Origin: Microbacterium ureisolvens
Lineage (GTDB): Bacteria; Actinomycetota; Actinomycetes; Actinomycetales; Microbacteriaceae
Assembly (NCBI RefSeq): GCF_019511645.1
Contig: NZ_JAEUAX010000003.1
Coordinates: forward strand, 186,001-250,000
Reading direction: 5' to 3'
Length of the DNA stretch: 64,000 nt
In this document: positions 5,828 to 42,887 of the stretch, piece by piece
Position numbering within the stretch: the stretch's first letter is position 1
Layout: the number at the start of each line of letters is the position of its first letter
Position numbers and translations under genes: made by a program
The notes under the pieces: model-generated
Seen by the model: the letters and a program-made list of their open reading frames with translations, nothing else
What the model was told of the DNA's origin: nothing
Databases searched by the model: none

Positions 5828-6183
5828 TGGACGCCGCTGTCGACCTCGCCGCCATGGTGCTGATCCTCATCGGCGCGCTGCTGTGCCTCACCGCCGCGAT
5901 CGGCGTGCTGCGCTTCCGCGACGTGCCGAGCCGCCTGCACGCGGCGACCAAGCCGCAGGTGCTGGGCCTGATCCTCATCTGCCTCGCGATCGCGCTGTCG
6001 CTGCGGTCGTGGCCGGTGGTCGCGTTCCTCGTTCCGGTCGTGCTGATCCAGCTCGCCACGGCTCCGCTGTCCGCACACATGGTGGGACGGCAGGCCTACC
6101 GCAACGGCACGATCGACGAGGCGGCGCTGCACGTCGACGAGCTGGCCGAGTCCAAGCGCACCCCGCCCGCCGCCGGCGGCTGA
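5827..6183 (+). CDS. mrpG: Mrp antiporter subunit G
   Basis: Last gene of the mrp operon. The 118-residue product has three membrane helices and the MrpG motif GVLRFRDVPSRLHAATKPQ followed by LGLILICLAIAL. It is coupled to mrpF by a one-base overlap. The C-terminal 35 residues are polar and poorly conserved. It converges on the minus-strand hydrolase that ends at 6213, with only 29 bp between them. That gap has a short GC palindrome (GCGGGCCCGC) but no clear terminator. Confidence 0.93.
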   Translation: MDAAVDLAAMVLILIGALLCLTAAIGVLRFRDVPSRLHAATKPQVLGLILICLAIALSLRSWPVVAFLVPVVLIQLATAPLSAHMVGRQAYRNGTIDEAALHVDELAESKRTPPAAGG

Positions 6184-12240: not shown

Positions 12241-14488
<2,248 letters not shown>

Positions 14489-15645: not shown

Positions 15646-16968
15646 GTGCCGACGCTGCTGGAGGACGAGGCGCTGCAGTTCGTGCGCGACCTCATCCGCA
15701 TCGAGACCGTGAACACCGGCGTCGCCGCGACGATCGGCGACGGCGAGACCCGCGCGGCATCGTGGGTGCGCGAGCGCCTCGCCGAAGTGGGAATCGCGTC
15801 GGAGCTCATCGAGTCGCGTCCGGGTCGGGGGTCGCTCATCGCCCGAATTCGGGGCAGCGATCTGCACGCCGGCGCGCTGCTCGTGCACGCCCACCTCGAC
15901 GTCGTGCCGGTCGAGGAGAAGGACTGGACGCACCCGCCCTTCGGCGCGGACATCGAGGACGGCTACCTGTACGGTCGCGGGGCCGTCGACATGAAGAACT
16001 ACGCCGGGACGATCCTCGCGGTGGCGCGGCACTTCGCCCGCGAGGGGATCGTGCCGCGGCGCGACCTGGTGTTCGCGTTCCTCGCCGACGAGGAGAGCGG
16101 CGGCGTGTGGGGCGCCGGATGGCTCGTCGAGAACCGGCCCGAGCTGTTCGCCGGCGTCACGGAGGCGCTGAGCGAGGTCGGCGGGTTCTCGGTGCCCCTG
16201 GTGGCTGATCCCGACGACGACCGCCGCGCGTACCTCGTGGCCACGAGCGAGAAGGGAGTCGCGTGGTCGACCCTGCGTGCCCGTGGGCACGCCGCCCACG
16301 GTTCGCGGCCCACCGCGGACAACTCCGTCGTGCGTCTCGCGCGGGCTGTCGCCGCGGTCGGCGAGCACCGGTTCCCGGTGGTGCGCACGCCCGCGCTGCA
16401 GCGCTTCCTGGATGTGTTCGGCGAGGCGCGGGGGCTCGCCTTCACCGACGAGTCGCTCGCGGACGACCTCGAGAGCCTGGGGTTCGTCTCGTCGCTCGTC
16501 GGCGCGACGACCCGGAACACCGCGACCCCGACCGTGCTCGACGCCGGCGACAAGACGAACATCATCCCGGCCGAGGCGGCGGCGCGGCTCGACATCCGCA
16601 TTCTCCCGGGCCAGGACGACGCCCTGCGCGACGGACTCCGCGAGCTCGTCGGTGACGACATCGACATCCGCGAGGGCCGGTGGTGGTCGGCGACCGAGGC
16701 CCCGGTCGACGCGCCGATCATCGACGTCCTCCAAGAGGCGATCTCGGTCGACGACCCCGACGGTGTCGTCGTGCCCTATCTGCTGCCGGCCAGCACCGAC
16801 AACAAGCACTTCGCGAAGCTCGGAATCCACGGCTACGGATTCGTGCCGCTGCGCGTACCCCGCGATTTCGACGTGTTCGCGCAGTTCCACGCCGCCGACG
16901 AGTGCATCCCGGTCGACGCGCTGTACTTCTCGGCGCGCGTGACCGAGCGGATCCTGCGGACCGCCTGA
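15646..16968 (+). CDS. M20 family zinc peptidase/deacylase
   Basis: Predicted 440-residue cytoplasmic metallohydrolase of the ArgE/DapE/CPG2-type M20 family. Metal and catalytic blocks are in order: HAHLDVVP (near residue 82), GRGAVDMKNY, LADEESGG with the catalytic Glu, and TDNKHFAKLG near the C-terminus supplying the last His. The GTG start at 15646 has a GAGGGGG ribosome site eight bases upstream. It is monocistronic and converges on the rhodanese gene six bases away. M20 members release amino acids from small peptides or N-acyl amino acids; the exact substrate is not evident. Confidence 0.92.
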   Translation: MPTLLEDEALQFVRDLIRIETVNTGVAATIGDGETRAASWVRERLAEVGIASELIESRPGRGSLIARIRGSDLHAGALLVHAHLDVVPVEEKDWTHPPFGADIEDGYLYGRGAVDMKNYAGTILAVARHFAREGIVPRRDLVFAFLADEESGGVWGAGWLVENRPELFAGVTEALSEVGGFSVPLVADPDDDRRAYLVATSEKGVAWSTLRARGHAAHGSRPTADNSVVRLARAVAAVGEHRFPVVRTPALQRFLDVFGEARGLAFTDESLADDLESLGFVSSLVGATTRNTATPTVLDAGDKTNIIPAEAAARLDIRILPGQDDALRDGLRELVGDDIDIREGRWWSATEAPVDAPIIDVLQEAISVDDPDGVVVPYLLPASTDNKHFAKLGIHGYGFVPLRVPRDFDVFAQFHAADECIPVDALYFSARVTERILRTA

Positions 16969-19129: not shown

Positions 19130-20443
19130 TCAGGCCGCGAGCTCCGCGCGCTCGCCGGCCTCCGGCAGGCCGAGGTTCTCGCGCAGCGTCGTGCCCGGGT
19201 ACTCGGACGGGTAGATCCCGCGTTCCTGCAGTTCGGGGATGAGCCCGTCGACGATGTCGTCGAGCCCCTCCGGCACGAGGTAGGGCGAGACGTTGAACCC
19301 GTCGACCGCGCCGGCCTCGACGTACTGCGCGATGCGGTCGGCGATCGTCGAGTACCCGCCGACGAAGGTGCGCAGCGACGACCGCTTGATGACGAACTCG
19401 CGTATCGAGAGCCCCTCGGCCGCCGCGCTCTCGCGCCACTCGCGCGCCGTCTCCAGCGCGCGCCGGCCCTGGAACAGCGATCCGCGCTGACCGTCCACCT
19501 CGTCGACGACGGGGTCGATGTCGGGCAGGGGGCCGTCGGCGTCGAACTCCGAGAGGTCGCGGCCCCAGATCGGCTCGAGGAAGCGGATCGCGGTCTGCGG
19601 CGACACCTGCGCCCGTGTGACCCACTCGGCCTTCTCCCGGGCCTCTGCGTCGGTCGAGGCCAGGATGAACTGCGCTCCCGGGAAGAACTTGAGGTCCTCC
19701 TCGCTCCGCCCGTGCCGCGGCAGCCGTCGGCGTACGTCCGCCGCGAACGCCCGGGCCTCCTCCAGGCCGGGGTGCGCAGAGAAGATGACGTCGGCGCTCG
19801 AGGCGGCGAACTCGCGGCCCTCGTCGGAGTCCCCGGCCTGGAACAGCACCGGACGCCCCTGTGCGCTCGGCGGCAGCGGCGCGGGCGCCTCGAACGACAC
19901 GAGCTGGTCGTTCACCGACACCGCAGTGCCGACGCCATGGTCACCGGCGTCCCACAGCCGCTGTGCGGCGGCGACGAACTGCGCTGCGCGGCGGTATCGA
20001 TCGGCGTGCTCGAGGTACCCGCCGCGTCGGAAGTTGGCGCCCGTCCAGGCGTTGTCGGTCGTGACGATGTTCCAGCCGGCTCGGCCTTCGCTCAACAGAT
20101 CGAGCGAGTTGAGGCGCTTCGCCAGGTCGTAGGGATCGTTGTACGTGGTGTTCTGCGTCGCGACGAGGCCGATCCGCTCCGTGACCGCCGCCAGAGCGGC
20201 CAGCTGCGTCTGCGCGTCGGGTCTACCGGCGATGTCGAGGTCGTGGATGCGGCCGAAGTGCTCACGCAACCGCAGGCCCTCGCCGAGGAAGAAGGCCGAG
20301 AACAGCCCGCGCTCCGCCGTCTGCGCGATGCGGCGGAACGACTCGAAGTCGTACTGCGACCCGCTCCGGTCGCTCGACCAGATGGTGCCGAAATTGACCC
20401 CCTGGAAGAACACACCGAACTGGATGCGACGGGACGTGGTCAT
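19130..20443 (-). CDS. LLM class flavin monooxygenase, NtaA/SnaA/DszA type (locus 1)
   Basis: Predicted 437-residue TIM-barrel enzyme of the nitrilotriacetate/EDTA/dibenzothiophene-sulfone monooxygenase group, which use reduced FMN delivered by a separate reductase. Markers are FGVFFQGVNFGTIW, LRLREHFGRIHDLDIAGRP, NTTYNDPYDLAKRLNSLDLL, GRAGWNIVTTDN and GRPVLFQAGDSDEGREFAA. The ATG at 20443 overlaps the preceding LLM gene by four bases, so the two are coupled. Its closest relative in the window is the 458-residue LLM at 40229-41605. The substrate is unknown; uptake is presumably by the divergent importer at 21708-24641. Confidence 0.88.
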   Translation of the reverse strand: MTTSRRIQFGVFFQGVNFGTIWSSDRSGSQYDFESFRRIAQTAERGLFSAFFLGEGLRLREHFGRIHDLDIAGRPDAQTQLAALAAVTERIGLVATQNTTYNDPYDLAKRLNSLDLLSEGRAGWNIVTTDNAWTGANFRRGGYLEHADRYRRAAQFVAAAQRLWDAGDHGVGTAVSVNDQLVSFEAPAPLPPSAQGRPVLFQAGDSDEGREFAASSADVIFSAHPGLEEARAFAADVRRRLPRHGRSEEDLKFFPGAQFILASTDAEAREKAEWVTRAQVSPQTAIRFLEPIWGRDLSEFDADGPLPDIDPVVDEVDGQRGSLFQGRRALETAREWRESAAAEGLSIREFVIKRSSLRTFVGGYSTIADRIAQYVEAGAVDGFNVSPYLVPEGLDDIVDGLIPELQERGIYPSEYPGTTLRENLGLPEAGERAELAA

Positions 20444-21501
20444 GCGAACTCCTTCACGGCGGTGGCGGCGTAGCGGCTGACGGGGCGCTCGAGGCCGAGC
20501 GCGTCGCGCAGGGTCTCCCCGGCGCGCGGTGAGCGGAACCCGATCCGCTCCCGCAGGGCCGGCAGCACCGCGCGACCCACCTCCTCGAGGTCGAGGTCGA
20601 GTTCCGCCACATGGAGGCGAACACCGTCGACGGATGCTGCGACCTCCGCGATCAGCGCGACCAGGCCGTCCGCGCCGCCCGCGAAGCGAAGGCGCCCGAC
20701 CTCCGGCCAGGCGCCGAGGGCATCCAGCCTCCGCTGCGCGGACACCCCGCGCGCGTCGAGCACGACCTCGACCTCGGCCCAGACGAGCGCCGCACCTGCG
20801 GCGCGGGCGCGGGCGGCAGCATCCGTGATCGCCGCTGAATCGGCGCCCGCGACCAGCGCGACATCCGCGCCCGCGGTGCCGGCGGACGCCGCCACCACCA
20901 ACTGCCCCTGCGGGGGCCGCGGTGTGATGAGCGGGCCCCTCACCGAGAACCTCTCGCCCTCGAAGTCGACGTAGTGCAGCTTGTCGGCGTCGAGGTAACG
21001 GCCGGTCGCGGCGTCCTGGATGACGGCGTCGTCCTCCCACGAGTCCCAGAGCCGGCGCGCGACCTCGATGACGTCCTCGCGCTCGCGGGCGAGCTCGGCG
21101 TCGGTCAGCGCCTCGCGGCCGTACGCGGCGGCTTCGCGTGCGGTGCCGGAGGCGGCGGCGATCCAGCCCGCGCGTCCGTTCGACGCCCAGTCGAGGCTCG
21201 CGAGCTGCGTCGCGACGTGGAACGGCTCGCTGTAGGCGGCGTGCGCGACCGGCACGAGGCCGATCGCCGACGTGAGGGGAGCGACGAACGCGGCGCGCTG
21301 CACGGCGTCGAGCCGTGCGACCACACCGCCCACCGGCAGGGGCGAGTCGTCGAAGGTCGCGGCAGTGAACCCGAAGCGCTCGGCCGCTGCGACGTGAGAA
21401 GCCAGAAGACGGGGTGACAGCGCAGCGGAGGCAGAAGAGGACGCGGGATGGGCGCCGAGGGCGTCCAGTTCGAGCGCGATGGCGAACGGAGTGTCGGACA
21501 T
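20440..21501 (-). CDS. LLM class flavin oxidoreductase, shorter coupled partner (locus 1)
   Basis: Predicted 353-residue luciferase-like protein. It has the barrel start, LTSAIGLVPVAHAAYSEPF, GRAGWIAAASG, and a block RRLWDSWEDDAVIQDAATG followed by DADKLHYVDFEG that is nearly repeated in the locus 2 partner (41602-42825). The central GxPQGQLVV region is conserved, but the C-terminal half is Ala-rich and weaker. It heads the minus-strand operon. The start at 21501 leaves a 206-bp divergent promoter region shared with the importer genes. It may form a mixed oligomer with the following LLM or act on a product; that is inference. Confidence 0.85.
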   Translation of the reverse strand: MSDTPFAIALELDALGAHPASSSASAALSPRLLASHVAAAERFGFTAATFDDSPLPVGGVVARLDAVQRAAFVAPLTSAIGLVPVAHAAYSEPFHVATQLASLDWASNGRAGWIAAASGTAREAAAYGREALTDAELAREREDVIEVARRLWDSWEDDAVIQDAATGRYLDADKLHYVDFEGERFSVRGPLITPRPPQGQLVVAASAGTAGADVALVAGADSAAITDAAARARAAGAALVWAEVEVVLDARGVSAQRRLDALGAWPEVGRLRFAGGADGLVALIAEVAASVDGVRLHVAELDLDLEEVGRAVLPALRERIGFRSPRAGETLRDALGLERPVSRYAATAVKEFA

Positions 21502-21560
21502 GCGAGCCACGGTAGGTGGCGGCGCGCGGATCACGGCCGCGTGCGACGCCCGATTCCGGA

Positions 21561-21707: not shown

Positions 21708-22790
21708 ATGACCGACACACTTCCGCGCCAGGCCGGCGCCGCCGAGACCGCGCCGCCGTCGCCTGCGGCGTCGTCGCGCGTCGACCTCGGCGACCTCCGC
21801 GTGGTCCACACCCGGCACTGGTTCCGTTGGTCGATCGGCACCGTCGTGCTGTTCGTCGTCGCCCAGTTCGCGTGGTCGCTGGTGACGAACGAGAACTACG
21901 AGTGGGATGTCTTCGCCCACTACTTCCTCTCGGAGCCGGTGCTGCAGGGCGTGGGCATCACGCTGGCGCTCACGGCGATCTCGGCGACCATCGGCTTCTT
22001 CCTCGGCACGCTCCTCGCACTCGCCCGCCTCGCGAAGTCGCCGCTGCTCAGCTCGGCCGCCTGGGTGTTCATCTGGTTCTTCCGCTCGGTGCCGCTCGTC
22101 GTGCAGATCATCGTCTGGTACAACCTCGGCTACCTGTACCCGACACTCGGGCTCGGCACCCCGTTCACGACGGACTTCTGGATCGTCGAGTTCCCGACGG
22201 TGCAGCTGATCAGCGCGTTCGCCGCGGCGATCCTCGGCCTCAGCCTCAACCAGGCCGCATACTCCGCCGAGATCATCCGCGGCGGCCTGCTGTCGGTCGA
22301 CCAGGGCCAGCTCGAGGCGGCCGCGGCGCTCGGCATCCCTCCGCGCCGCCGGCTGACCCGCATCATCCTGCCCCAGGCGATGCGCTCCATCGTCCCGAAC
22401 GCCACCAACGAGGTGATCGGCCTCGTCAAGGGCGCATCGGTGGTGTTCGTGATCGCCATCCCCGAGGTGTTCTACGCCGTGCAGGTCATCTACAACCGCA
22501 ACAGCCGCGTGATCCCGCTGCTCCTGGTCGCGGTGGTCTGGTACACGATCATCACCACGATCCTGAGCATCGCGCAGTACTACATCGAGCGGCACTACGC
22601 CCGCGGCACCGTGCGCGTGCTCCCGCCGACCCCCGTGCAGCGGGCGCGCCGTTGGATCGCCGTGCAGTGGGCCCGTCTCGGCGACGGCGACTCCTCGCCA
22701 CCTCCTCTGAAGGGGACGGATGCCGCGCCCCTGCCCGCCACGGCACAGCAGGGCTCGAGCAACGACGCCACGTACTCAGGAGGACGCTGA
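21708..22790 (+). CDS. Polar amino-acid-type ABC transporter permease
   Basis: Predicted 360-residue inner-membrane permease of the HisMQ/GlnP type. After a 45-residue polar lead come about six helices. The EAA-type loop is present (EAAAALGIPPRRRLTRIILP, about residues 204-223). WFFRSVPLVVQIIVWYNLG is typical of the family. The C-terminal 60 residues after the last helix are Pro/Ser-rich and unusual for the family. GAGGAG precedes the ATG at 21708. It is followed by its ATPase and binding-protein genes, giving an importer with one permease gene that presumably acts as a homodimer. Confidence 0.9.
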   Translation: MTDTLPRQAGAAETAPPSPAASSRVDLGDLRVVHTRHWFRWSIGTVVLFVVAQFAWSLVTNENYEWDVFAHYFLSEPVLQGVGITLALTAISATIGFFLGTLLALARLAKSPLLSSAAWVFIWFFRSVPLVVQIIVWYNLGYLYPTLGLGTPFTTDFWIVEFPTVQLISAFAAAILGLSLNQAAYSAEIIRGGLLSVDQGQLEAAAALGIPPRRRLTRIILPQAMRSIVPNATNEVIGLVKGASVVFVIAIPEVFYAVQVIYNRNSRVIPLLLVAVVWYTIITTILSIAQYYIERHYARGTVRVLPPTPVQRARRWIAVQWARLGDGDSSPPPLKGTDAAPLPATAQQGSSNDATYSGGR

Positions 22791-22791
22791 C

Positions 22792-23595
22792 ATGAGCACC
22801 ACTATCACCGAGACCGCGGCCGAGACCGCCACCAAGGGGCTCGTCGAGATCCACAACGTCCACAAGAGCTACGGCGGAATCGAGGTGCTGCGCGGCATCG
22901 ACCTGACCGTCCAGCCGGGCGAGGTGGTGGCGATCCTCGGGCCGAGCGGCTCGGGCAAGTCGACGCTGCTGCGCACGATCAACCACCTCGAGAGCGTCGA
23001 CCGAGGTTCGGTCACCGTCGACGGCCAGCTGATCGGGTACGAGCTGCGCGGCGGCAAGCTCTACGAGCTGCGTGAGCGCGAAGTGCTGGAGCGTCGTACT
23101 CAGATCGGCATCGTCTTCCAGAACTTCAACCTCTTCCCGCACCTGACGGCGCTCGAGAACGTCACCGAGGCGCCCGTCGCGCTCGGCAGGCTCTCGAAGG
23201 ACGACGCCCGCGAGCTCGCCCTGGGCCTCCTCGACCGCGTCGGGCTCGCTGACAAGGCCGAGCACTACCCGCGGCAGCTGTCGGGCGGTCAGCAGCAGCG
23301 CGTCGCGATCGCCCGCGCCCTCGCCCTGAAGCCGAAGGTGATCCTGTTCGACGAGCCGACGAGCGCGCTCGACCCGGAGCTCGTCGGCGAGGTGCTCGAC
23401 GTCATCCGCGACCTCGCGCAGCTCGGCACGACCCTCGTCATCGTCACGCACGAGGTCGGGTTCGCCCGCGAGGTCGCCGACCGCGTCGTGTTCCTCGACG
23501 GCGGACGCGTCATCGAGCAGGGCCCGCCCGCCGAAGTGCTCGTGCGCCCTCAGCACCCCCGCGTCCAGGACTTCCTCGCGAAGGTTCTGGCCTGA
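22792..23595 (+). CDS. Polar amino-acid-type ABC transporter ATP-binding protein
   Basis: Predicted 267-residue ATPase of the HisP/GlnQ family with all motifs intact: Walker A GPSGSGKST (about residues 47-55), Q-loop VFQNFNLFPHLTALENVTEA, signature LSGGQQQRVAIARAL, Walker B VILFDEPTSALDPEL and switch His in VTHEVGFA. The ATG at 22792 is one base after the permease stop and has AGGAGG upstream. It powers the permease encoded just before it. Confidence 0.94.
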   Translation: MSTTITETAAETATKGLVEIHNVHKSYGGIEVLRGIDLTVQPGEVVAILGPSGSGKSTLLRTINHLESVDRGSVTVDGQLIGYELRGGKLYELREREVLERRTQIGIVFQNFNLFPHLTALENVTEAPVALGRLSKDDARELALGLLDRVGLADKAEHYPRQLSGGQQQRVAIARALALKPKVILFDEPTSALDPELVGEVLDVIRDLAQLGTTLVIVTHEVGFAREVADRVVFLDGGRVIEQGPPAEVLVRPQHPRVQDFLAKVLA

Positions 23596-23648: not shown

Positions 23649-24641
23649 ATGGCATTGAGCAAGAAGCAGGGCATCGCGATCGGTGTCGGCGCCGTCGCGG
23701 TGGCCGCGATCGTCGGCAGTATCGTCTGGGGCGTCAACCAGAACGCCCCCGCCGAGGCGGCCGCCCCCGAGGCGACCGAGGCGTCGGCGAACGTCGCCAC
23801 CGACGACATCCAGTGGGTGCGGCTCGACGAGCCCGTGGCCGAGGCCGTCGAGGCGCTCGAGGCGAGCGGCTTCGAGCCGGTCGAACCGGGCAAGCTCACC
23901 GTCGCGCACTCCGCGTACGTGCCGCCGCTGGGCTACATCCCCGAGGGCGAGACCGACCCGGCCGGCACCGAGCCGAACATCGGCGCGCTGATCGCCGACG
24001 CACTCGGCCTCGAGTACAACCCGGTCGTCGTGGCGTGGGCCGACTGGCCCCTCGGCATCCAGTCGGGCAAGTACGACCTCATCACGTCGAACGTCACCGT
24101 CACCGAGGAGCGCAAGGAGCTCTACGACTTCGCGAGCTACCGCGAGGACCTGCTCGGCTTCTACGTGAAGAGCGACAGCGACATCGAGAAGATCGAGGAG
24201 GCCGCTGACATCTCGGGTCTCAAGATCGCGGTCGGCTCGGGCACGAACCAGGAGCAGGTGCTGCTCGCCTGGAACGAGGAGCTCGAGGCCGCGGGCGAGG
24301 AGCCCGCAGAGCTGCAGTACTTCGACGACAACGCGGCGACCGTGCTGGCACTTCAGTCGGGCCGGATCGATGCGACGTTCGGTCCGAACGCGACCTCGGC
24401 GTGGGCCGCCCGCGAGACCGGCGACACCAAGCTCGTCGGCCTCGTGCCCGGCGGCTGGCCGCTGACGGCCAACATCGCGGCCGCCACGGCCAAGGGCAAC
24501 GGCCTCATCGAGCCTGTGAACATCGCGCTGAACCACCTCATCGAGAACGGCCAGTACGACGAGGTCCTGAAGATCTGGGACCTCGAGTCGGAGCGCGTCG
24601 ACGAGAGCCTCATCAACCCGCCGGGACTTCCCAAGTCCTGA
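23649..24641 (+). CDS. ABC transporter substrate-binding protein, amino-acid type
   Basis: Predicted 330-residue SBP_bac_3-like protein. The first 30 residues form a basic then hydrophobic segment (GIAIGVGAVAVAAIVGSIVW) without a lipobox Cys, so it is either released after an Ala-rich region or stays as an N-terminal anchor. The binding fold shows SNVTVTEERKELYDFASYRE and GSGTNQEQVLLAWNEEL. It closes the importer operon 53 bp after the ATPase gene. A nested inverted repeat begins six bases after its stop. The ligand is unknown; co-location with LLM oxidases suggests an organic N- or S-compound. Confidence 0.88.
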   Translation: MALSKKQGIAIGVGAVAVAAIVGSIVWGVNQNAPAEAAAPEATEASANVATDDIQWVRLDEPVAEAVEALEASGFEPVEPGKLTVAHSAYVPPLGYIPEGETDPAGTEPNIGALIADALGLEYNPVVVAWADWPLGIQSGKYDLITSNVTVTEERKELYDFASYREDLLGFYVKSDSDIEKIEEAADISGLKIAVGSGTNQEQVLLAWNEELEAAGEEPAELQYFDDNAATVLALQSGRIDATFGPNATSAWAARETGDTKLVGLVPGGWPLTANIAAATAKGNGLIEPVNIALNHLIENGQYDEVLKIWDLESERVDESLINPPGLPKS

Positions 24642-24647
24642 CATCCG

Positions 24648-24735
24648 CGCGCACAGAATCGGAGGTTCGGACGACACGCCGGGAAACGGATGCCGCCGCC
24701 CGGCGCGTCACCGAGAAGCTCCGATTCTGTGCGCG
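24648..24735. terminator. Nested double inverted repeat after the importer operon
   Basis: Outer arms of 17 bp (24648-24664 and 24719-24735) are perfect complements. Inner arms of 11 bp (24673-24683 and 24699-24709) have one G-T wobble. The inner loop contains the octamer ACGGATGC. The element starts six bases after the binding-protein stop and ends 46 bp before the LLM-GNAT-GNAT gene, so it may end the importer transcript or modulate read-through. Confidence 0.7.
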
Positions 24736-24781: not shown

Positions 24782-26959
24782 ATGTCCCGCGTTCCGCTCT
24801 CGGTCCTCGACCTCTCGCCGTTCGGCACGGGCCAGACAGCCGCCGACGGCCTGCGTGCCAGCGTCCGACTGGCGCAGGCGGCCGAGCGCCTCGGCTACCG
24901 GCGCTACTGGGTGGCCGAGCATCATTTCAACCCCGGCATCGCCGGCGCCGCACCGCATGTGCTGCTGGCTTCCGTCGCGGCCGCGACGCACAGCATCCGT
25001 ATCGGCACCGCCGCCACGATCATCGGCAATTACTCCCCGGCTCAGGTCGCCGAGGCCGCCGGCGTCGTGGCGCAGCTGCACCCCGGACGCTTCGACCTCG
25101 GCATAGGCCGCTCCGGATCGCGCGGCGCCGCAGCGACGGCGCTCCCCGTGGCCGGGCACGATCGCGTGGTCGACGGCCTGCTGCTTCCCGCGGCCCGCCC
25201 GTTCGCCGGGTTCGACGCCGAGCGTTTCGTGGTGCAGGGGCGGCTGCTCGGGCGCACGGAGGCCGACGCCGATCGTTTCGCCGAGGATGTCGCCGACATC
25301 CTGTCGTTCTTCGACGGCACGTTCGCTCCGCCCGAGGACGTGCCGATCCACGTCACGCCCGCGGAGGGTGCCGACGTCACCGTCTGGATCCACGGGTCCA
25401 CCGCCGGCCCCAGTGCCCGCCTCGCCGGCGAGCTCGGGCTGCCCTTCGGCGCGAACTACCACGTGGCTCCCGGCTTCGTGCTCGAGGCGATCGACGAGTA
25501 CCGCGCCGCGTTCCGTCCCGGCCGCATCGCCGAGCCCTACGTCATCGTGTCGGTCGACGCCGTCGTCGCAGAGACGGATGCCGCGGCCCGCCGCCTCGCG
25601 GCGGGTTACGGTCGATGGGTGCACAGCATCCGCGCCGGCCAGGGCGCCGTCCCCTTCCCCTCGCCCGACGAGGCCACGGCCGATCCGCTGACGGCGGACG
25701 AGCTCGCCGTCGTGCACGATCGCCTCGACACGCAGTTCGTCGGCTCGCCCGAGACGGTGGTCGAGAGGCTCGAGACGCTCCAGCGCGTGACCGGGGCCGA
25801 TGAGCTCCTCGTCACCACGGTCACCCACGACCCCGCGGACCGCGTGCGCTCGTATGAGCTCCTCGCCGAGGCGTGGGAGTCCGGTGCCTCCGCGGAGGCC
25901 GGGGACGCCGCATCCCTTCCCGCCGACTGGATCATCCGCCTCGTTCGCACCGAGGAGTACGAGCGAGCGGGAGAGGTGACCGCCGACGCGTACCTGTCGA
26001 GCTACGACTCGCTGTCGCCGGAGTACGTGGCGTCGCTGCGCGATGTCGCGAGCCGCGTACGCGAGGGAGATGTCTGGATCGCGGTCGAACCGGACGGCGA
26101 GATCCTCGGGACGGTGTGGGTGGCGCGTCCGAACCGCCCGCTTGCCGCGATGGCCCTGCCCGGCGAGACGGACTTCCGGCAGCTGGCGGTGGCTCCCGTC
26201 GCCCGCGGCCGCGGCGTCGGCGAGGCGCTCACACGTCACGTCATCGGCCTCGCGCGCGAGCGCGGCTCGCACCGCGTCGTGATGAACAGCGGCCCCGAGA
26301 TGACCGGCGCCCACGCGCTCTACGCGAAGCTCGGGTTCCGAAGGCTGCCGGAGCGCGAGGGACTGAAGGAGGTGCAGCCCGGACGCTGGATCGAGCTGTA
26401 CACGTTCGGCTACGACCTCGCGCCCGCGCCCGCCGCGGAGCCGCCGACCGAGCGTTCGTGGACCTTCGAGACGGTGCCGTGGGACGACCCGCGCGCCGAA
26501 GCCCTGCGCGCCGAGATGGACGTCGAGGTCTCGCCCCGCTATGCGGATCGACTCACGGATGCTGCACCCGAGGCGGCCGAGGAGGCGCAGCGCACGTTCG
26601 CGGTCGACCCCGACACGATCGTCGCCACCGTGCTCGCCGTGGATGCGGGGGGCGACGCGGTCGGTCATGCGGCGCTGCGCGACCTCGTGCATGACGGCAC
26701 ACGCGACCTCGAGGTGAAGCGCGTGTTCGTGAAGCCGCGCGCGCGTGGAACGGGCGCCAGCCGCGCGCTGATGGGGGAGCTCGAGCGCATCGCGCAGGAT
26801 CGCGGCGCGGGCCGGCTGATCCTGCAGACCGGCGACCGTCAGCACGACGCCGTGGTCCTCTACGAGCGCATCGGGTATCGCCGCATCCCGATCTTCGAGC
26901 CGTACAAGGCGTTCGCGTTCTCGCAGTGCTTCGAGAAGGAGCTCGCGCCGCCGGTGTGA
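24782..26959 (+). CDS. Three-domain fusion: LLM flavin oxidoreductase + two GNAT acetyltransferases
   Basis: Predicted 725-residue protein. Residues 1 to about 365 form a luciferase-like barrel of the MsnO8-like group (GTAATIIGNYSPAQVAEAAG, GRFDLGIGRSGSRG, QFVGSPETVVERLETLQ). Residues about 380-546 are a GNAT domain with the acetyl-CoA loop in APVARGRGVGEALTRHVIG. Residues about 558-725 are a second, different GNAT domain with VKPRARGTGASRALMGEL and the end block AVVLYERIGYRRI. The ATG at 24782 has GGGAG upstream. There is no stop or frameshift between domains. Each domain is a normal length, so this is a true fusion, perhaps coupling oxidation with N-acetylation of substrate or product. The order of reactions is not known. 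Confidence 0.85.
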   Translation: MSRVPLSVLDLSPFGTGQTAADGLRASVRLAQAAERLGYRRYWVAEHHFNPGIAGAAPHVLLASVAAATHSIRIGTAATIIGNYSPAQVAEAAGVVAQLHPGRFDLGIGRSGSRGAAATALPVAGHDRVVDGLLLPAARPFAGFDAERFVVQGRLLGRTEADADRFAEDVADILSFFDGTFAPPEDVPIHVTPAEGADVTVWIHGSTAGPSARLAGELGLPFGANYHVAPGFVLEAIDEYRAAFRPGRIAEPYVIVSVDAVVAETDAAARRLAAGYGRWVHSIRAGQGAVPFPSPDEATADPLTADELAVVHDRLDTQFVGSPETVVERLETLQRVTGADELLVTTVTHDPADRVRSYELLAEAWESGASAEAGDAASLPADWIIRLVRTEEYERAGEVTADAYLSSYDSLSPEYVASLRDVASRVREGDVWIAVEPDGEILGTVWVARPNRPLAAMALPGETDFRQLAVAPVARGRGVGEALTRHVIGLARERGSHRVVMNSGPEMTGAHALYAKLGFRRLPEREGLKEVQPGRWIELYTFGYDLAPAPAAEPPTERSWTFETVPWDDPRAEALRAEMDVEVSPRYADRLTDAAPEAAEEAQRTFAVDPDTIVATVLAVDAGGDAVGHAALRDLVHDGTRDLEVKRVFVKPRARGTGASRALMGELERIAQDRGAGRLILQTGDRQHDAVVLYERIGYRRIPIFEPYKAFAFSQCFEKELAPPV

Positions 26960-30809: not shown

Positions 30810-31895
30810 TCACGCAGCCGCGAGTTCGCGCGCGCGCCGACCCAGAGGATCGGCATCCGTCCACAGCGTCGTCGGGAACTCCCGGCGGAGCACCGGCGCG
30901 ACCTCCAGCGCGAAGCGCTCGAGGATCTCGAGCTGGCGCTCGAACGGCACGGTCGTCGGCAGGCTGATGGACTGCAGGTCGTGCCCGAGCCGGCCGTGGA
31001 ACCGCGCGATCTTGTCGATCACCTGCTGCGGCGTGCCGACGAGGGCGGGACCCTCGGCGACGGCGTGCTCGATGTCGCGGAACGGGGTGTTGTTGCCGGG
31101 CACGTTGGTGGCGGCGACGATCGCGTTGTAGACCGGGCCGTACTGCGCGATCGCCTCCTGCGTCGTGTCGGCGATGAACAGCGCCCCCGAGCCTGCGGCG
31201 ACGAACGCGGCGGCCGGATCATGGCCGTGCCGCGCGTACTCCGAACGGTAGTGGTCGACGAGCACGCCGTAGTTCTCGAGCGGCTGTATGGCGTTCGCGC
31301 TGAACAGCGGATCGCCGAAGCGCGCCGCGAGTCCCGCCGAGAACAGCGTCGTCGCAGAGCCGTGCCACACCCGCGGCGCGCCGTCGAACGGCCGCGGCAG
31401 CGTCGTGACGCCGGAAAGCGCCCGGGTGAACTCCGTGCCCGGCCACGTGACGTCGTCCTCGCGCCACAGCGTCCGCAGCAGCTCGTACTTCTCCGCGAGC
31501 AGCTCCCACTGGTCGTCGATGTCGAGCCCGAACAGCGGAAACTGCGCGACCTCGTTGCCCTTGCCGATCGTGATGTCGAGGCGCCCGCCCGAGAGCTGGT
31601 CGATGGTCGCGTAGTCCTCGGCGACGCGCACCGGATCCAGCACCGACAGGACGGTGACACCGGAATTGAGACGGATGCTGCGCGTCCGGGCCGCGATCGC
31701 GCCCAGCAGCACCGTCGGCGACGAGGAGATGAAGTGCCCGGCATGACGCTCGCCGATGGCCACAGCATCCAATCCCAGCTCCTCGGCGCGGATCGCCTGC
31801 TGGAGCGTCTCGGCGAAGCGCTCGGCCGGCGAGACCTGGCGGCCCGTGATCGGATCGGCGCGATAGGGGACGATGTCGAGCAGCTGGAACCTCAT
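30810..31895 (-). CDS. LLM class flavin-dependent oxidoreductase (locus 2, distal)
   Basis: Predicted 361-residue luciferase-like enzyme. Markers are GLDAVAIGERHAGHFISSSP, RLNSGVTVLSVLDPVRVAED, SGGRLDITIGKGNE and LVGTPQQVIDKIARFHG. It is closer to the alkanal/alkanesulfonate-type LLM proteins than to the NtaA type. The ATG at 31895 overlaps the DUF1684 stop by four bases, so the pair is co-translated. It ends the long minus-strand cluster that begins at 42825. Confidence 0.88.
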   Translation of the reverse strand: MRFQLLDIVPYRADPITGRQVSPAERFAETLQQAIRAEELGLDAVAIGERHAGHFISSSPTVLLGAIAARTRSIRLNSGVTVLSVLDPVRVAEDYATIDQLSGGRLDITIGKGNEVAQFPLFGLDIDDQWELLAEKYELLRTLWREDDVTWPGTEFTRALSGVTTLPRPFDGAPRVWHGSATTLFSAGLAARFGDPLFSANAIQPLENYGVLVDHYRSEYARHGHDPAAAFVAAGSGALFIADTTQEAIAQYGPVYNAIVAATNVPGNNTPFRDIEHAVAEGPALVGTPQQVIDKIARFHGRLGHDLQSISLPTTVPFERQLEILERFALEVAPVLRREFPTTLWTDADPLGRRARELAAA

Positions 31896-38348: not shown

Positions 38349-40232
38349 CTACCGCCCGACGGGCACCGCGAGGGCGAGGCGGGCAGCGATGGCGCCGGCG
38401 ACCACGTCGGTCTGGCGCAGCGACAGCGAGTTCGCCGCGGGACGCGTGAATGCGCCGGCTTCGGTCTGCGATGTGAAGGGCCCGATCGCGAACAGGGAGT
38501 CGTGCGCCGAGCCGTCGGGGCGCAGCACGCGGCCCTCGTCGCTGACCCGCACGCGGCCGAGCGAGCCGCTGAACTCGGCGTCGGTCACGTGCAGCTCCCC
38601 GCCGTGCACGGTCGCGAGCTCCCGCAGTGCGACGTTCGTGCTGAGGGCGGCGTCGGCCGCGGGGAGCCACGCGTCGACGAGAGCACCGGCGACCGTCTCG
38701 CCGGGCACGCGGGGACTGGATGCCGTGAACCCGCGTTCGCTCACCTCCACCTCGACCTCGGGGCCGAGGAAGCGCACGACTCCGGCGTCGGCGAGGGCGA
38801 GCAGCTCCTCGAGCCGGTGCGGCGGGGGACCGCTGGCGAGGTAGCTGAAGAAGGTGTGCCACCGGACGGGCAGCGTGTACGCGCGGGAGCGGGCGGTGAA
38901 GCGCTCCTTGGGAATCTCCGAGAGCGCCATGAACGACAGCAGCGCCGCCATGAAGACGCCCTGCGCGGGACTGCGCTCCTGCGTCGTGCGCATCTCGAGG
39001 TCGTCGACGATGTGCGCCCGCACCCGGCGCTGCACGTCATCGGCATCCGCGAATTCCAGGTCGGCGAACGGGCGGTCGAACGCGGCCACGTCGAACCGGT
39101 CGAGCGGGTCGGGCACGACGGCGGCGATCGCGTCGCGGAGGGCGGGCTCGTCCCATGCATGGTCGCGCAGCACCGGACGGAACTCGTCCCATGTGGTCGC
39201 GACCCGGTCGGGGTGCCCGGTGAAGAGCTCGCGGTAGTGTCCGTGCAGCAGTTCAGCGGCGATCAGCGGCCAGACGTCCCGGTCGAAGTCGATCGGGCGG
39301 CCGCCGTCGACGAGTGCGGCGATGACGTCGGGCGTGAGCACCTCGCGCTGCGGCACGGTCCCCTGCAGCCTCGAGGTGACCTTGGAGCGATAGGGCACCC
39401 CGCGGCGCGAGCCGAGGTGCAGACGGGGCTCTCGCCCCGACGGCAGATACCGGAGCACGCCGTCGGCCGCGCGGTCGAAGCGTCCGCCGCGACCCTGGGT
39501 GAGCAGCACCACGAGGTCGACCGCCGCGAGGCCCATTCCGCGCACGAGCACGTCCGCGCCCGGAGCCAGTCCCGCGAGGTCGGCATCCGCGGTGAACGCC
39601 GGGCCCACGTACACGAGTCCCTCCCGCGCGGCGGCAGCGGCGAGTTCCGCGGTCGCCGGATCGGGGTCGCGCTCGGTGTGCCCCAGACAGTAGGCGACAG
39701 CATCCGCCTGAATCGCGCGGCCGCTCTCGAGCGAGACGGTGTGCCTCCCGTCGTTCCCAGACCGCACCGACGTCACCGTGTCGACATGGAGCCGGATGCG
39801 CACGCCTTCGGGCGCGCTCGCCCTGGTGCGGCGGAAGAACCAGTCGAGGTAGTGGCTGTGCAGGCGCCGCGTCGGAAAGCCCTCCGGCCCGAGCGCGCGG
39901 GCCTCGGCAGCCGACAGCTCATCGAGGTCGACGTCGGCGAGCTCGCCCGCGCGCCAGAGCTCCAGCCATTCGCTGAGCGACGGACCCGGACGCACGGGGC
40001 CGTCGATCGTGCAGCTGTCGTCGGTGAACACCGTGACGTCACGGGCCATCGAGTTGAGCTTCAGCAGCGGCGACTGCGCATGGCGCCAGATGCGGCCGGC
40101 ACCGGGGGGATGCGGGTCGACGAGGTCGATGTCGAGCAGCGTCGACGCGTCCGCGCGCGCCAGCACGCGTTCGAGGAGCATGATCGCCCGGGGGCCGGCT
40201 CCGACGAACAGCAGGCGCGCGCGGCCCGTCAT
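38349..40232 (-). CDS. FAD/NAD(P)-binding protein (PF13454-like)
   Basis: Predicted 627-residue flavoprotein with an N-terminal dinucleotide fold (RLLFVGAGPRAIMLLERVLA) and the family blocks QSPLLKLNSMARDVTVF, GFPTRRLHSHYLDWFFRR and VLVRGMGLAAVDLVVLLTQG. Proteins of this type are related to N-hydroxylating and other single-component flavin enzymes, but biochemical data are scarce. The ATG at 40232 overlaps the preceding LLM gene by four bases. It could feed electrons to the LLM monooxygenases or oxidise the same substrate; that is inference. Confidence 0.85.
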   Translation of the reverse strand: MTGRARLLFVGAGPRAIMLLERVLARADASTLLDIDLVDPHPPGAGRIWRHAQSPLLKLNSMARDVTVFTDDSCTIDGPVRPGPSLSEWLELWRAGELADVDLDELSAAEARALGPEGFPTRRLHSHYLDWFFRRTRASAPEGVRIRLHVDTVTSVRSGNDGRHTVSLESGRAIQADAVAYCLGHTERDPDPATAELAAAAAREGLVYVGPAFTADADLAGLAPGADVLVRGMGLAAVDLVVLLTQGRGGRFDRAADGVLRYLPSGREPRLHLGSRRGVPYRSKVTSRLQGTVPQREVLTPDVIAALVDGGRPIDFDRDVWPLIAAELLHGHYRELFTGHPDRVATTWDEFRPVLRDHAWDEPALRDAIAAVVPDPLDRFDVAAFDRPFADLEFADADDVQRRVRAHIVDDLEMRTTQERSPAQGVFMAALLSFMALSEIPKERFTARSRAYTLPVRWHTFFSYLASGPPPHRLEELLALADAGVVRFLGPEVEVEVSERGFTASSPRVPGETVAGALVDAWLPAADAALSTNVALRELATVHGGELHVTDAEFSGSLGRVRVSDEGRVLRPDGSAHDSLFAIGPFTSQTEAGAFTRPAANSLSLRQTDVVAGAIAARLALAVPVGR

Positions 40233-41605
40233 CGTGCGGCGAGTGCCGGTGCCGACTGTGCCGGGACCGTCTGGGTCGCCGGGAGGTCGAGCAGGTCGCG
40301 CAGCGTCGCGCCCTCCTCGTACGACTGCCGGTACGAGCCGCGCTCCTGCAGCAGCGGCACGACACGCTCGGCGAATTCGTCGAGCCCGTGCGGCGTCAGG
40401 TGCCCGACGACGGTGAAGCCGTCGGTCGCGCGCTCCTGCACGTAGCGGTCGATCTCCCCGGCGATGTGGTCCGGCGTCCCGACGAACGTCGGTGTGGCCG
40501 TGAGTCGGATGACGGTCTCACGGATGCTGAGTCCCTCGGTCTCCGAGAGCGCCCGCAGCTTCGCGATCCGGGCGCGCACCGCGGCGTGCCGGTTGGCCCA
40601 GCCCCGTGCGGTCTCGGAACCGGTGTCGGGGTCGACCTCGGGGAGCGGGCCGTCGGGGTCGTAGCCCGAGAGGTCGCGGCCCCACACCTGCTCGACGTAC
40701 GTGAGCGCGACCTCGGGCCGCACCTGCTGCAGCGCCACCTCGCGGGCGCGCTCGCGGGCCTCGGCGTCGGTGTCGCCGATGGAGAAGGTCACCGCGGGCA
40801 GGATCTTGAGCGAGTCCTCCTCGCGGCCGTACTGGGCCAGGCGCCCCTTGACGTCGTCGTAGAACGCGCGCGCATCCTCGAACTCCTGGTGCAGCGAGAA
40901 GATCACCTCGGCGTGCTCCGCGCCGAACGCGCGGCCGTCGGCCGAGTCGCCGGCCTGCACGATCACCGGGCGTCCCTGGGGGGATCGGGGCACGTCGAAC
41001 AGCGCGTCGACGTCGAACTGCGGGCCGCTGTGTCGGACGGGCACGGGAACGCCGTCGTCGAGGAACACGCCGGACGCGGCATCCGCTCGCACACCGCCGC
41101 CGGGCCACGAGTCCCACAGCTGCTTCGCGAGCGCCGCGAACTCGCGCGCGCGCTCGTAGCGGTCGGCGTGGTCGAGGAAGCCGCCGCGACGGAAGTTCGC
41201 GCCGTGGAAGGCGTCGGAGCTCGTCACGGCGTTCCACCCCGCGCGGCCGCCCGACAGGTGGTCGAGGGTCGCGAGCTGGCGAGCGAGCTCGTAGGGCTCG
41301 TTGAACGTCGTGTTGAGCGTGCCGACGACACCCACGTGCTCGGTGACGGCGGCGACCGCGGCGAGGATCGACAGGGTGTTCGGCCGTCCCAGCACGTCGA
41401 GCTCGTGTATGCGACCCTTGTGCTCGCGCAGCCGCAGGCCCTCGGCGAGGAAGACGTAGTCGAACAGCCCGCGCTCGGCGGTCGCGGCGAAGTGCTCGAA
41501 CGATGAGAAGTCGATCTGGCTGCCCGCCGTCGGGTCGGTCCAGACGGTGGTGCTGTTGACGCCGGGGAAATGCGCGGCGAGGTGGATCTGGCGGGGACGG
41601 CTCAC
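40229..41605 (-). CDS. LLM class flavin monooxygenase, NtaA/SnaA/DszA type (locus 2)
   Basis: Predicted 458-residue enzyme of the two-component flavin monooxygenase group. Markers are LRLREHKGRIHELDVLGRP, NTTFNEPYELARQLATLDHL, GRAGWNAVTSSDAFHGANFR, GRPVIVQAGDSADGRAFGAE and QVWGRDLSGYDPDGPLPEVD. It is clearly paralogous to the locus 1 enzyme at 19130-20443. The GTG at 41605 overlaps the upstream LLM gene (GTGA), and its stop overlaps the FAD protein start. Reduced FMN must come from elsewhere, since no reductase gene is visible in the window. Confidence 0.88.
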   Translation of the reverse strand: MSRPRQIHLAAHFPGVNSTTVWTDPTAGSQIDFSSFEHFAATAERGLFDYVFLAEGLRLREHKGRIHELDVLGRPNTLSILAAVAAVTEHVGVVGTLNTTFNEPYELARQLATLDHLSGGRAGWNAVTSSDAFHGANFRRGGFLDHADRYERAREFAALAKQLWDSWPGGGVRADAASGVFLDDGVPVPVRHSGPQFDVDALFDVPRSPQGRPVIVQAGDSADGRAFGAEHAEVIFSLHQEFEDARAFYDDVKGRLAQYGREEDSLKILPAVTFSIGDTDAEARERAREVALQQVRPEVALTYVEQVWGRDLSGYDPDGPLPEVDPDTGSETARGWANRHAAVRARIAKLRALSETEGLSIRETVIRLTATPTFVGTPDHIAGEIDRYVQERATDGFTVVGHLTPHGLDEFAERVVPLLQERGSYRQSYEEGATLRDLLDLPATQTVPAQSAPALAAR

Positions 41606-42825
41606 AGCGAGACCTTCTCTCGGACGTAGCGGCTCTCGGGGCGTGCGAGGTCGAGACGGGCGCGGAGGGACCGGCCACCGTCATCGGCCCGGAGGGTGCC
41701 GGTGGAGCGCAGGAGCGGCACGACCTGCTCGGCGATCGCGGCGACGTCGGCCGGCTGGCGCGCGGGGCGCAGGCGCACACCGTCGACGCCCGCGGCGGCG
41801 AGCTCGCGAACAGCGTCGGCGACGTCGGCGGGTGTGCCGACGACGACGCGTGCGTCTGACGCGAGCGGCGCACCGTCCCACTCGTCCAGGCGCGCGAGGG
41901 CGTCCCGCGCTGCCGACTCGGAGTCTTCGATCAGCACGAGCAGATCGGCGAAGACCCGCAGACGCTCGCCGGCATCGCGCAGTTCGTCGGCGGCAGCATC
42001 CAGCTCCGACAGGATCGCGGGCAAGGCGAGACCGGGAACTTCCGCCCCGTCGTGGGGCGTGATGAACACGACGTCGGCGCGCTCTGCCGCCAGGCGATAG
42101 GGAACGGTCTGATGCGCAAGGACCGTGATCAGCGGCCGGCCCTGCGGAGACCGCGGCACGATCGAGGCGCCGGTGATCGAGAAGAACTCGCCCTCGAACT
42201 CGATGTTGTGGACACGGTCGGCGTCGAGGAATCGGCCGGCGGCGACATCGCGGATGATGGCGTCGTCCTGCCACGAGTCCCACAGGCGCGACAGCACATC
42301 GGCGAACTCGCCCGCCTCGCGGAATGCCGCGAGGATCTCGGGGGAGTCCTCGACGCGACCCGACGCGGGAATGGCGTCGACCCCGGTTGCGCGACGGCCG
42401 AAGTTGGCGCGCTCGGCGGTCGAAGCGCCTGCGACCAGGCGAACGCCGGCGCGGCCTCGGCTGGCGAAGTCGAGCGTCTGGATGCCGGTGGCGACATGGA
42501 AGGGCTCGGGGTGTGCGGTCGTGACGGTGGGCACCAGGCCGATGCGGCGCGTCAGCGGCGCGACGTACGACGCGATGAGCACCGCGTCCAGACGGCCCCG
42601 CACGCGGTCACGTCGCAGGCCCTCGACCGGCTCGAAGCGGTCGGGGAGCGAGAGGGCGTCCTCGATCGTCGCGAGCGCGATGCCGGCGTCGTCGGCCGTG
42701 CGCAGCAGATCGCGCCAGTAGCGCGCCGTCGTCAGCTCGTGCGGACGGGCGGTGGCCTCCCGCCACGCGGCGGGGTGCCATCCGGCCCGTTCGAGGGCGA
42801 TGGCGAGGTGAACCTGATCGGTCAC
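41602..42825 (-). CDS. LLM class flavin oxidoreductase, shorter coupled partner (locus 2)
   Basis: Predicted 407-residue luciferase-like protein, first gene of the long minus-strand cluster. It shares LTRRIGLVPTVTTAHPEPFH, RLWDSWQDDAIIRDVAAGRF, DADRVHNIEFEGEFFSI and PRSPQGRPLITVLAH with its locus 1 counterpart (20440-21501). The GTG at 42825 has a GAAAGGA site upstream. Just before that site lie two tandem hairpins in the leader. The gene pair order and the four-base overlap are the same in both loci, so the pair probably acts as a unit. Confidence 0.85.
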   Translation of the reverse strand: MTDQVHLAIALERAGWHPAAWREATARPHELTTARYWRDLLRTADDAGIALATIEDALSLPDRFEPVEGLRRDRVRGRLDAVLIASYVAPLTRRIGLVPTVTTAHPEPFHVATGIQTLDFASRGRAGVRLVAGASTAERANFGRRATGVDAIPASGRVEDSPEILAAFREAGEFADVLSRLWDSWQDDAIIRDVAAGRFLDADRVHNIEFEGEFFSITGASIVPRSPQGRPLITVLAHQTVPYRLAAERADVVFITPHDGAEVPGLALPAILSELDAAADELRDAGERLRVFADLLVLIEDSESAARDALARLDEWDGAPLASDARVVVGTPADVADAVRELAAAGVDGVRLRPARQPADVAAIAEQVVPLLRSTGTLRADDGGRSLRARLDLARPESRYVREKVSL

Positions 42826-42845
42826 GGGAGCTGTCCTTTCTAGCC

Positions 42846-42887
42846 CCGCACGCGACCTGCGTCGCGTGCGGCCTCGTCGCACGAGGC
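42846..42887 (-). promoter_or_regulatory. Tandem hairpins in the leader of the locus 2 operon
   Basis: Stem one pairs CCGCACGCGAC (42846-42856) with 42861-42871 perfectly around a 4-nt loop. Stem two pairs GCCTCGT (42871-42877) with 42881-42887 around a 3-nt loop. Both lie 21-62 bp upstream of the LLM GTG at 42825, directly before its ribosome site. Further upstream CCCGCG/CGCGGG and CTCC/GGAG could add a longer stem. This could be an attenuator, an RNA switch or a protein operator. It matches no riboswitch I know. Confidence 0.5.

Follow-up and report, generated by a model that had tools for sequence, protein, structure and literature searches.

We found that one gene (positions 24782 to 26959, plus strand) encodes an MsnO8-family LLM flavin oxidoreductase fused to two different GNAT domains, designated GNAT1 and GNAT2, within the window, i.e., the whole stretch of 64,000 nucleotides of Microbacterium ureisolvens DNA that was analyzed. 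By analogy with a gene set of Bacillales, we lean toward the reading that the fusion protein serves sulfur salvage by acetylating and oxygenating an S-substituted cysteine, or a closely similar thioether amino acid, that the cell has imported. It would join two steps that the known S-alkylcysteine pathway carries out with separate proteins, and this joining predicts such a pathway for a cluster that recurs in Microbacteriaceae, unfused relatives included. What is new is the fusion; its parts and the metabolic logic are already known.

Translation of the gene gave 725 residues with a single stop, at the end, and GGGAG stands 5' of the ATG. Pfam placed Bac_luciferase N-terminally, followed by two Acetyltransf_1 stretches, with which the whole fusion protein scored 95.6 bits (PF00583; cut-off, 20.7). 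The LLM domain (residues 1 to about 366; 24782 to 25879) is a member of the MsnO8 family, scoring 301.8 bits with TIGR03558 against a cut-off of 166.95. Its nearest solved structure is MsnO8 (4us5; 34% identity in the Foldseek alignment), with which it shares domain fold and family, whereas MsnO8 is a stand-alone enzyme and about 32 residues of the window's LLM (around 122 to 153) are left unaligned by the TIGR03558 model. The 50 matches listed by Foldseek for the fusion protein were LLM-superfamily entries alone and uninformative on the GNAT part. GNAT1 (residues about 384 to 546; 25931 to 26419) carries the CoA loop ARGRGVG at about R475 to G480, as well as Tyr514, and GNAT2 (residues about 560 to 725; 26459 to 26956) carries ARGTGAS at about R653 to G658, as well as Tyr694; the nearest solved structures, 4h89 and 3lod, respectively, are distant. 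The R and G residues of the loops, Y514, and Y694 were invariant in an alignment of three fusions. AlphaFold2 predicted three folded domains (mean pLDDT, 86.2) with low-confidence linkers at 372 to 380 and 548 to 557. Thus, an intact 725-residue frame, a luciferase-like barrel ahead of two different GNATs, and an acetyl-CoA loop in each of these (RGRGVG and ARGTGAS), all claimed by the first-pass annotation, were borne out. The structure prediction of interfaces that it proposed gave the three folded domains in the model but, with a pTM of 0.56, did not fix their relative placement. It knew of no characterized enzyme with this domain order, and none was found among the papers listed in searches of open-licence literature.

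The same frame, free of internal stops, was present in three other genomes of the genus, G413 (91% identity), G210 (90%), and G167 (70%), so the fusion is not an assembly artefact; the stop or frameshift between domains that would have spoken against one protein was found in none of them. In G210, the open frame starts three codons ahead of the position equivalent to the window's ATG. Among the window's genome (G000), G210, and G413, dN/dS was 0.07 to 0.10 for the LLM domain, 0.12 to 0.13 for GNAT1, and 0.06 to 0.16 for GNAT2, and it was 0.17 to 2.0 for the short linkers, five of six values exceeding 0.5. Comparison of the domains with the more distant G167, where synonymous sites are near saturation, gave 0.23 to 0.36. 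All three domains are under purifying selection, and the linkers drift.

The fusion is rare. In the genus, 36 of 366 genomes matched at an E value of ≤1e-100 and were classed by match span, the frames being verified for fetched loci: 4 have triple fusions, 1 an LLM-GNAT1 fusion (G249), 15 a single stretch spanning GNAT1 and GNAT2 (4 of them with a separate LLM match), and 16 the LLM alone. No further triple fusion was among the matches listed for 398 genomes of the family (E ≤ 1e-100) and 396 of the phylum (E ≤ 1e-80), in searches that score the best few candidates per genome and that a diverged fusion may escape; 521 plasmid records matched, none covering 80% of the query. The architecture is therefore not a common one, which was the other ground on which the initial proposal could have fallen, with 4 of 366 genus genomes carrying it. 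Only the fusion is unusual: relatives encode its parts separately but in one another's company, often as neighbors, and unfused Microbacteriaceae genes are 47 to 89% identical to its domains, the matching domains being there encoded by two or three genes, with GNAT2 sometimes convergent. One genome of the family, G098, encodes an LLM identical to the one of Mycetocola saprophilus.

As the first-pass annotation noted, the fusion gene adjoins an amino-acid-type importer, which lies upstream on the same strand. It comprises an ABC permease (21708 to 22790; best NCBIfam model, cystine permease at 135 of 300 bits, below the cut-off), an ABC ATPase (22792 to 23595; best match, TcyN at 321.7 bits, equivalog cut-off 406), and a solute-binding protein of SBP family 3 (23649 to 24641; no NCBIfam cut-off reached). 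Two LLM genes are encoded on the minus strand beyond the permease gene. The first, LLM_J (19133 to 20443), is of the NtaA/DmoA family (TIGR03860, 346 bits; cut-off, 279.7) and a candidate C-S-cleaving oxygenase by its matches, 236 bits to chain B of 7e36 and 219 bits to YtnJ (1yw1); we take YtnJ to be CmoJ, and YtmO to be CmoO. The second, LLM_2 (20440 to 21501), reached 155 bits with TIGR03860, below the cut-off; searched over a range beginning at 21519 or 21630, it matched 3sdo best over part of its length and 7e36 chain A over most of it. Its stop overlaps the start of LLM_J at 20440 to 20443, which suggests coupled translation of the pair and perhaps a heterodimer like 7e36. Farther upstream, an M20 metallopeptidase (15646 to 16968, plus strand) belongs to the PRK07906 subfamily (551 bits; cut-off, 382) and is a candidate deacylase; TIGR01891, of the amidohydrolase type, was not among the 25 of its 29 matches that were listed.

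A 21-nucleotide inverted repeat (24648 to 24735) forms a strong hairpin that separates the fusion gene from the gene for the binding protein. A hairpin was present at this junction in all five other genomes examined, with a similar sequence in G210 and G413 and a different one in G249, G167, and G200. In the window it lacks a following T-run, and it is possibly an expression-balancing element. An Rfam search of the 17- to 40-kb region gave no match at gathering scores.

We compared the window with 40 fetched loci, counting matches of at least 70 bits. The recurring order in relatives was M20, permease, ATPase, binding protein, LLM_O (the unfused LLM counterpart, in some), GNAT1, and, in some, GNAT2. 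Over the 41 loci, the binding protein was present in 32, GNAT1 in 30, and a DmoA/YtnJ-type LLM in 25; among fetched loci with GNAT1, 27 of 28 had the binding protein and 26 of 28 the permease. In 13 of 41 loci, an M20 that was 66 to 77% identical to the window's preceded the importer with no other queried gene in between; with the window counted, an M20 of at least 66% identity lay upstream of the importer in 16, and in 3 of these the LLM pair stood between the two. At unfused family and genus loci with a fusion-type LLM (L082 to L121), the fetched stretch held a GNAT1 of at least 48% identity in 9 of 20 cases and lacked it in 11.

Besides, a DmoA/YtnJ-type LLM of at least 150 bits flanked 21 of 29 loci of the fusion LLM's clade versus none of 51 other MsnO8-family loci, a split made from identity and context, so that context entered the choice. 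These loci come from named contigs, the best 80 of at least 596 stretches, scanned by two LLM-domain patterns in a search that may omit genomes close to the window. The LLM tree placed all 29 own-clade loci and none of the 51 others in one supported 63-row group. For reference, a search of the 4.3-Mb G000 genome gave four LLM_J-like genes at an E value of ≤1e-20, two of them within the window. A GNAT1 homologue at 45 bits was found in none of the 29 own-clade loci from named genomes, and a GNAT2-like one in 3; a clear link to GNAT1 thus showed up only in other Microbacteriaceae loci.

A Bacillus operon offers the closest parallel in metabolic logic. According to passages of two studies, acetylation and oxidation are performed there by separate enzymes encoded in an operon with a cystine-type importer (PMC6323116, PMC10863075), and that operon is described as serving S-alkylcysteine (PMC6323116). 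The conjugate is acetylated, CmoO converts it to a sulfoxide, and CmoJ cleaves the C-S bond, after which reduction and deacetylation follow, as outlined in part of PMC10863075. TcyJKLMN is stated to take up cystine and cysteinopantetheine in a passage of PMC11487621. Acetylation, breakdown, and deacetylation likewise form the scheme for S-(2-succino)cysteine, and the scm (yxe) cluster for it, as presented in parts of PMC9706529 and PMC12757645, shares acetylation, flavin-dependent breakdown, deacetylation, and an ABC importer with our reading, but has one oxygenase and one unfused GNAT, and those parts name no MsnO8-type LLM.

The importer, GNAT, MsnO8 LLM, and DmoA/YtnJ LLM of an S-alkylcysteine salvage gene set are all present at the window locus. 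A fetched Bacillales cluster, L289, has in common with it a GNAT, an M20 hydrolase, a cystine-type importer, and LLMs of the MsnO8 and NtaA/DmoA families. The genes in L289 are a LysR gene, an MsnO8 LLM, a YtnJ relative that scores 599 bits to 1yw1, an M20 amidohydrolase, two GNATs, and an ATPase accompanied by two permeases. Given this similar kit, the window protein most likely joins the acetylation and oxygenation steps, with the LLM and two GNATs in one polypeptide where the Bacillus system has separate proteins. We infer each of the reactions that follow, as well as the substrate and any channeling between domains. The cystine-type ABC importer would bring the compound into the cell, where one or both GNAT domains would N-acetylate its amino group using acetyl-CoA. 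The MsnO8-type LLM domain, with reduced flavin from a separate reductase, would then oxidize the acetylated product, probably on its sulfur atom. Cleavage of the C-S bond would fall to the DmoA/YtnJ-type LLM pair encoded on the opposite strand, and removal of the acetyl group to an M20 peptidase.

The likeness to the Bacillales clusters lies in the gene set and not in orthology with CmoO. Bacillales loci that include a YtnJ-type LLM contributed 18 LLMs to a 133-row tree built by a quick method; 17 of the 18 formed a separate clade, the remaining one fell among generic MsnO8 rows, and the fusion's LLM stood outside that clade, closer to generic MsnO8 proteins. These 133 rows stayed after matches of <90 bits, <44% identity (genus and family loci), or <250 residues were left out, and the tree omits 10 of 12 loci of one fetched set, which had no LLM_O match. 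CmoO orthology, the simplest label, was dropped since the Bacillales cluster LLMs form another clade, in a tree without B. subtilis CmoO; of the B. subtilis proteins, YtnJ alone was compared with the window, through the PDB. The M20 subfamily differs as well, the M20s of two Bacillales clusters matching TIGR01891 and the window's being PRK07906-type. GNAT1 is 28 to 33% identical to the GNATs of two Bacillales clusters with an MsnO8-type LLM, a YtnJ relative, and an importer, a weak likeness when taken as a sign of orthology with SnaA/YxeL-type cysteine-conjugate acetyltransferases. As the LLM clade, M20 subfamily, and GNAT1 all differ in this way, our claim is that the window protein works like CmoO and SnaA, not that it is one of them. 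Compared with one cluster GNAT, the second in L289, GNAT2 scored 23.5 bits, which is no specific match.

Several observations speak against the sulfur-salvage reading, namely the LLM outside the Bacillales clade, the PRK07906-type M20, the 29 clade loci without GNAT1, the lack of a close GNAT1 at 11 of 20 unfused loci, the loss of GNAT2 in G249, and a locus of another genus, G718, without a cystine-type importer. The earlier suggestion that one polypeptide oxidizes and N-acetylates one small molecule fits well with the pair of steps in Bacillus. One substrate for both GNATs and the LLM is a more tentative part of that suggestion: the linkers drift, G249 has lost GNAT2, and the importer occurs with GNAT1 but no fusion-type LLM in 15 of 41 loci.

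On the GNAT trees, one change between separate and joined GNAT1-GNAT2 suffices, the support for the joined form being 86/72 in a 39-row GNAT1 tree and 80/80 in a 27-row GNAT2 tree; the tables left out matches of <110 bits or <48% identity, and the trees GNAT1 rows of up to 140 and GNAT2 rows of up to 130 residues. GNAT1 and GNAT2 thus probably fused once. That the five LLM-fused rows, a set defined by frame, form one clade was rejected on GNAT1 (AU P = 0.0003) and was not rejected on the LLM (AU P = 0.44). The rejection stems from two groupings: G167 falls with G229, at whose fetched locus LLM_O is missing, and the window's group joins G200, G254, and G485, in which the LLM is a separate gene; the LLM-fused state requires at least two changes on the GNAT1 tree. 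The LLM joined the GNATs later, perhaps on two occasions; one joining, followed by splits or gene exchange, is a possible alternative. In G249, GNAT1 is followed by a short out-of-frame GNAT2-like piece (L084, about 5904 to 5945), a sign that a deletion most likely removed GNAT2 once the triple fusion had formed.

An incidental fusion, by loss of a stop codon between co-transcribed neighbors, with each domain keeping its own job and nothing gained, is a serious rival, since fusing adjacent co-transcribed genes needs no benefit. It concerns the fusion rather than the pathway and is compatible with sulfur salvage. The freely evolving linkers, the rarity of the fusion, the split relatives close by, and the loss of GNAT2 in one strain are in its favor; against it, four genomes as little as 70% identical retain the fused frame, and neighbors of the set were joined at least twice overall, once when GNAT1 and GNAT2 fused and again when the LLM was added. 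We regard it as the less probable account, though one of real weight. A more ambitious version of the preferred reading is a trifunctional enzyme whose two GNATs, differing in substrate range, feed the LLM, so that imported S-substituted cysteines would undergo both acetylation and S-oxygenation before leaving the protein; its stepwise assembly would have taken place under selection for coupled steps. We hold this version to be doubtful, though not remote. Both steps can be studied in this single protein, and the gain from fusing can be examined in strains whose genes are fused, half-fused, or split.

The same logic could instead serve another organosulfur amine or thioether, which the GNATs protect or tag, e.g., methionine-type sulfoxides, or peptidic or mercapturate-like conjugates entering via a linked oligopeptide importer. 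The locus adjoins a second DmoA-type LLM pair, as well as a Dpp-type importer, DUF1684, and a CE1758-type LLM, as do the loci of part of the relatives (of 41 loci, 20 have DppDF, 18 DUF1684, and 11 the CE1758-type LLM), and DmoA/DszA/SfnG-like LLMs, by their family names, act on various organosulfur compounds. G718 has LLM_O, a joined GNAT1-GNAT2 beside this separate LLM, LLM_2, and LLM_J, all in one direction; no cystine-type importer was found in its 20 kb, the importers seen being of the Dpp type alone. However, the closest importer models at the window are of the cystine and amino-acid types, and the parallel Bacillus operon is one for S-alkylcysteine, as indicated in part of PMC6323116. 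We hold this alternative to be possible but well short of S-substituted cysteine salvage.

Detoxification or resistance, with an amino-acid-like antibiotic or herbicide inactivated by one of the GNATs (GNAT2 or GNAT1) and oxidized by the LLM, is improbable. A weak similarity to nourseothricin, tabtoxin, and phosphinothricin acetyltransferases is in its favor, but the score with the streptothricin model is 49.2 bits (cut-off, 420), and the linked importer would carry such a compound into the cell. About equally unlikely is a tailoring enzyme of secondary metabolism, to which the nearest solved LLM, MsnO8 (4us5), presumably named for mensacarcin biosynthesis, and the resemblance of the adjoining LLM pair to 7e36, which is mentioned in a streptoseomycin paper (PMC8027225), might point, but no biosynthetic core gene was among the part of the window genes scanned, and the recurring neighbors are importers and desulfurization-type LLMs.

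The wider region of the window, 19133 to 42882, holds six LLM-family genes or domains within 24 kb: NtaA/DmoA-type pairs at 19133 to 21501 and 40229 to 42882, the LLM of the fusion, and a CE1758-like LLM at 30810 to 31895. In the second pair, 41602 to 42882 is the partner by 36% identity to LLM_2. DUF1684 and a TIGR04028-like, Dpp-type importer lie in the same region, which looks like an organosulfur-scavenging island from its gene content. Next to the second pair, a 627-residue FAD-NAD(P)-binding protein (PF13454; 38349 to 40232) had no NCBIfam match at an E value of ≤1e-10, and its relatives occur in 11 of 41 loci, the window counted. An AhpD-type peroxidase-like gene (L103, 18117 to 18563) is linked in 14 of 41 loci and was not found in the window stretch examined. 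Beyond the M20 gene, the window encodes an argininosuccinate synthase (12241 to 13683), which, in the stretches fetched, was otherwise found only at L098 (2 of the 41 loci in all).
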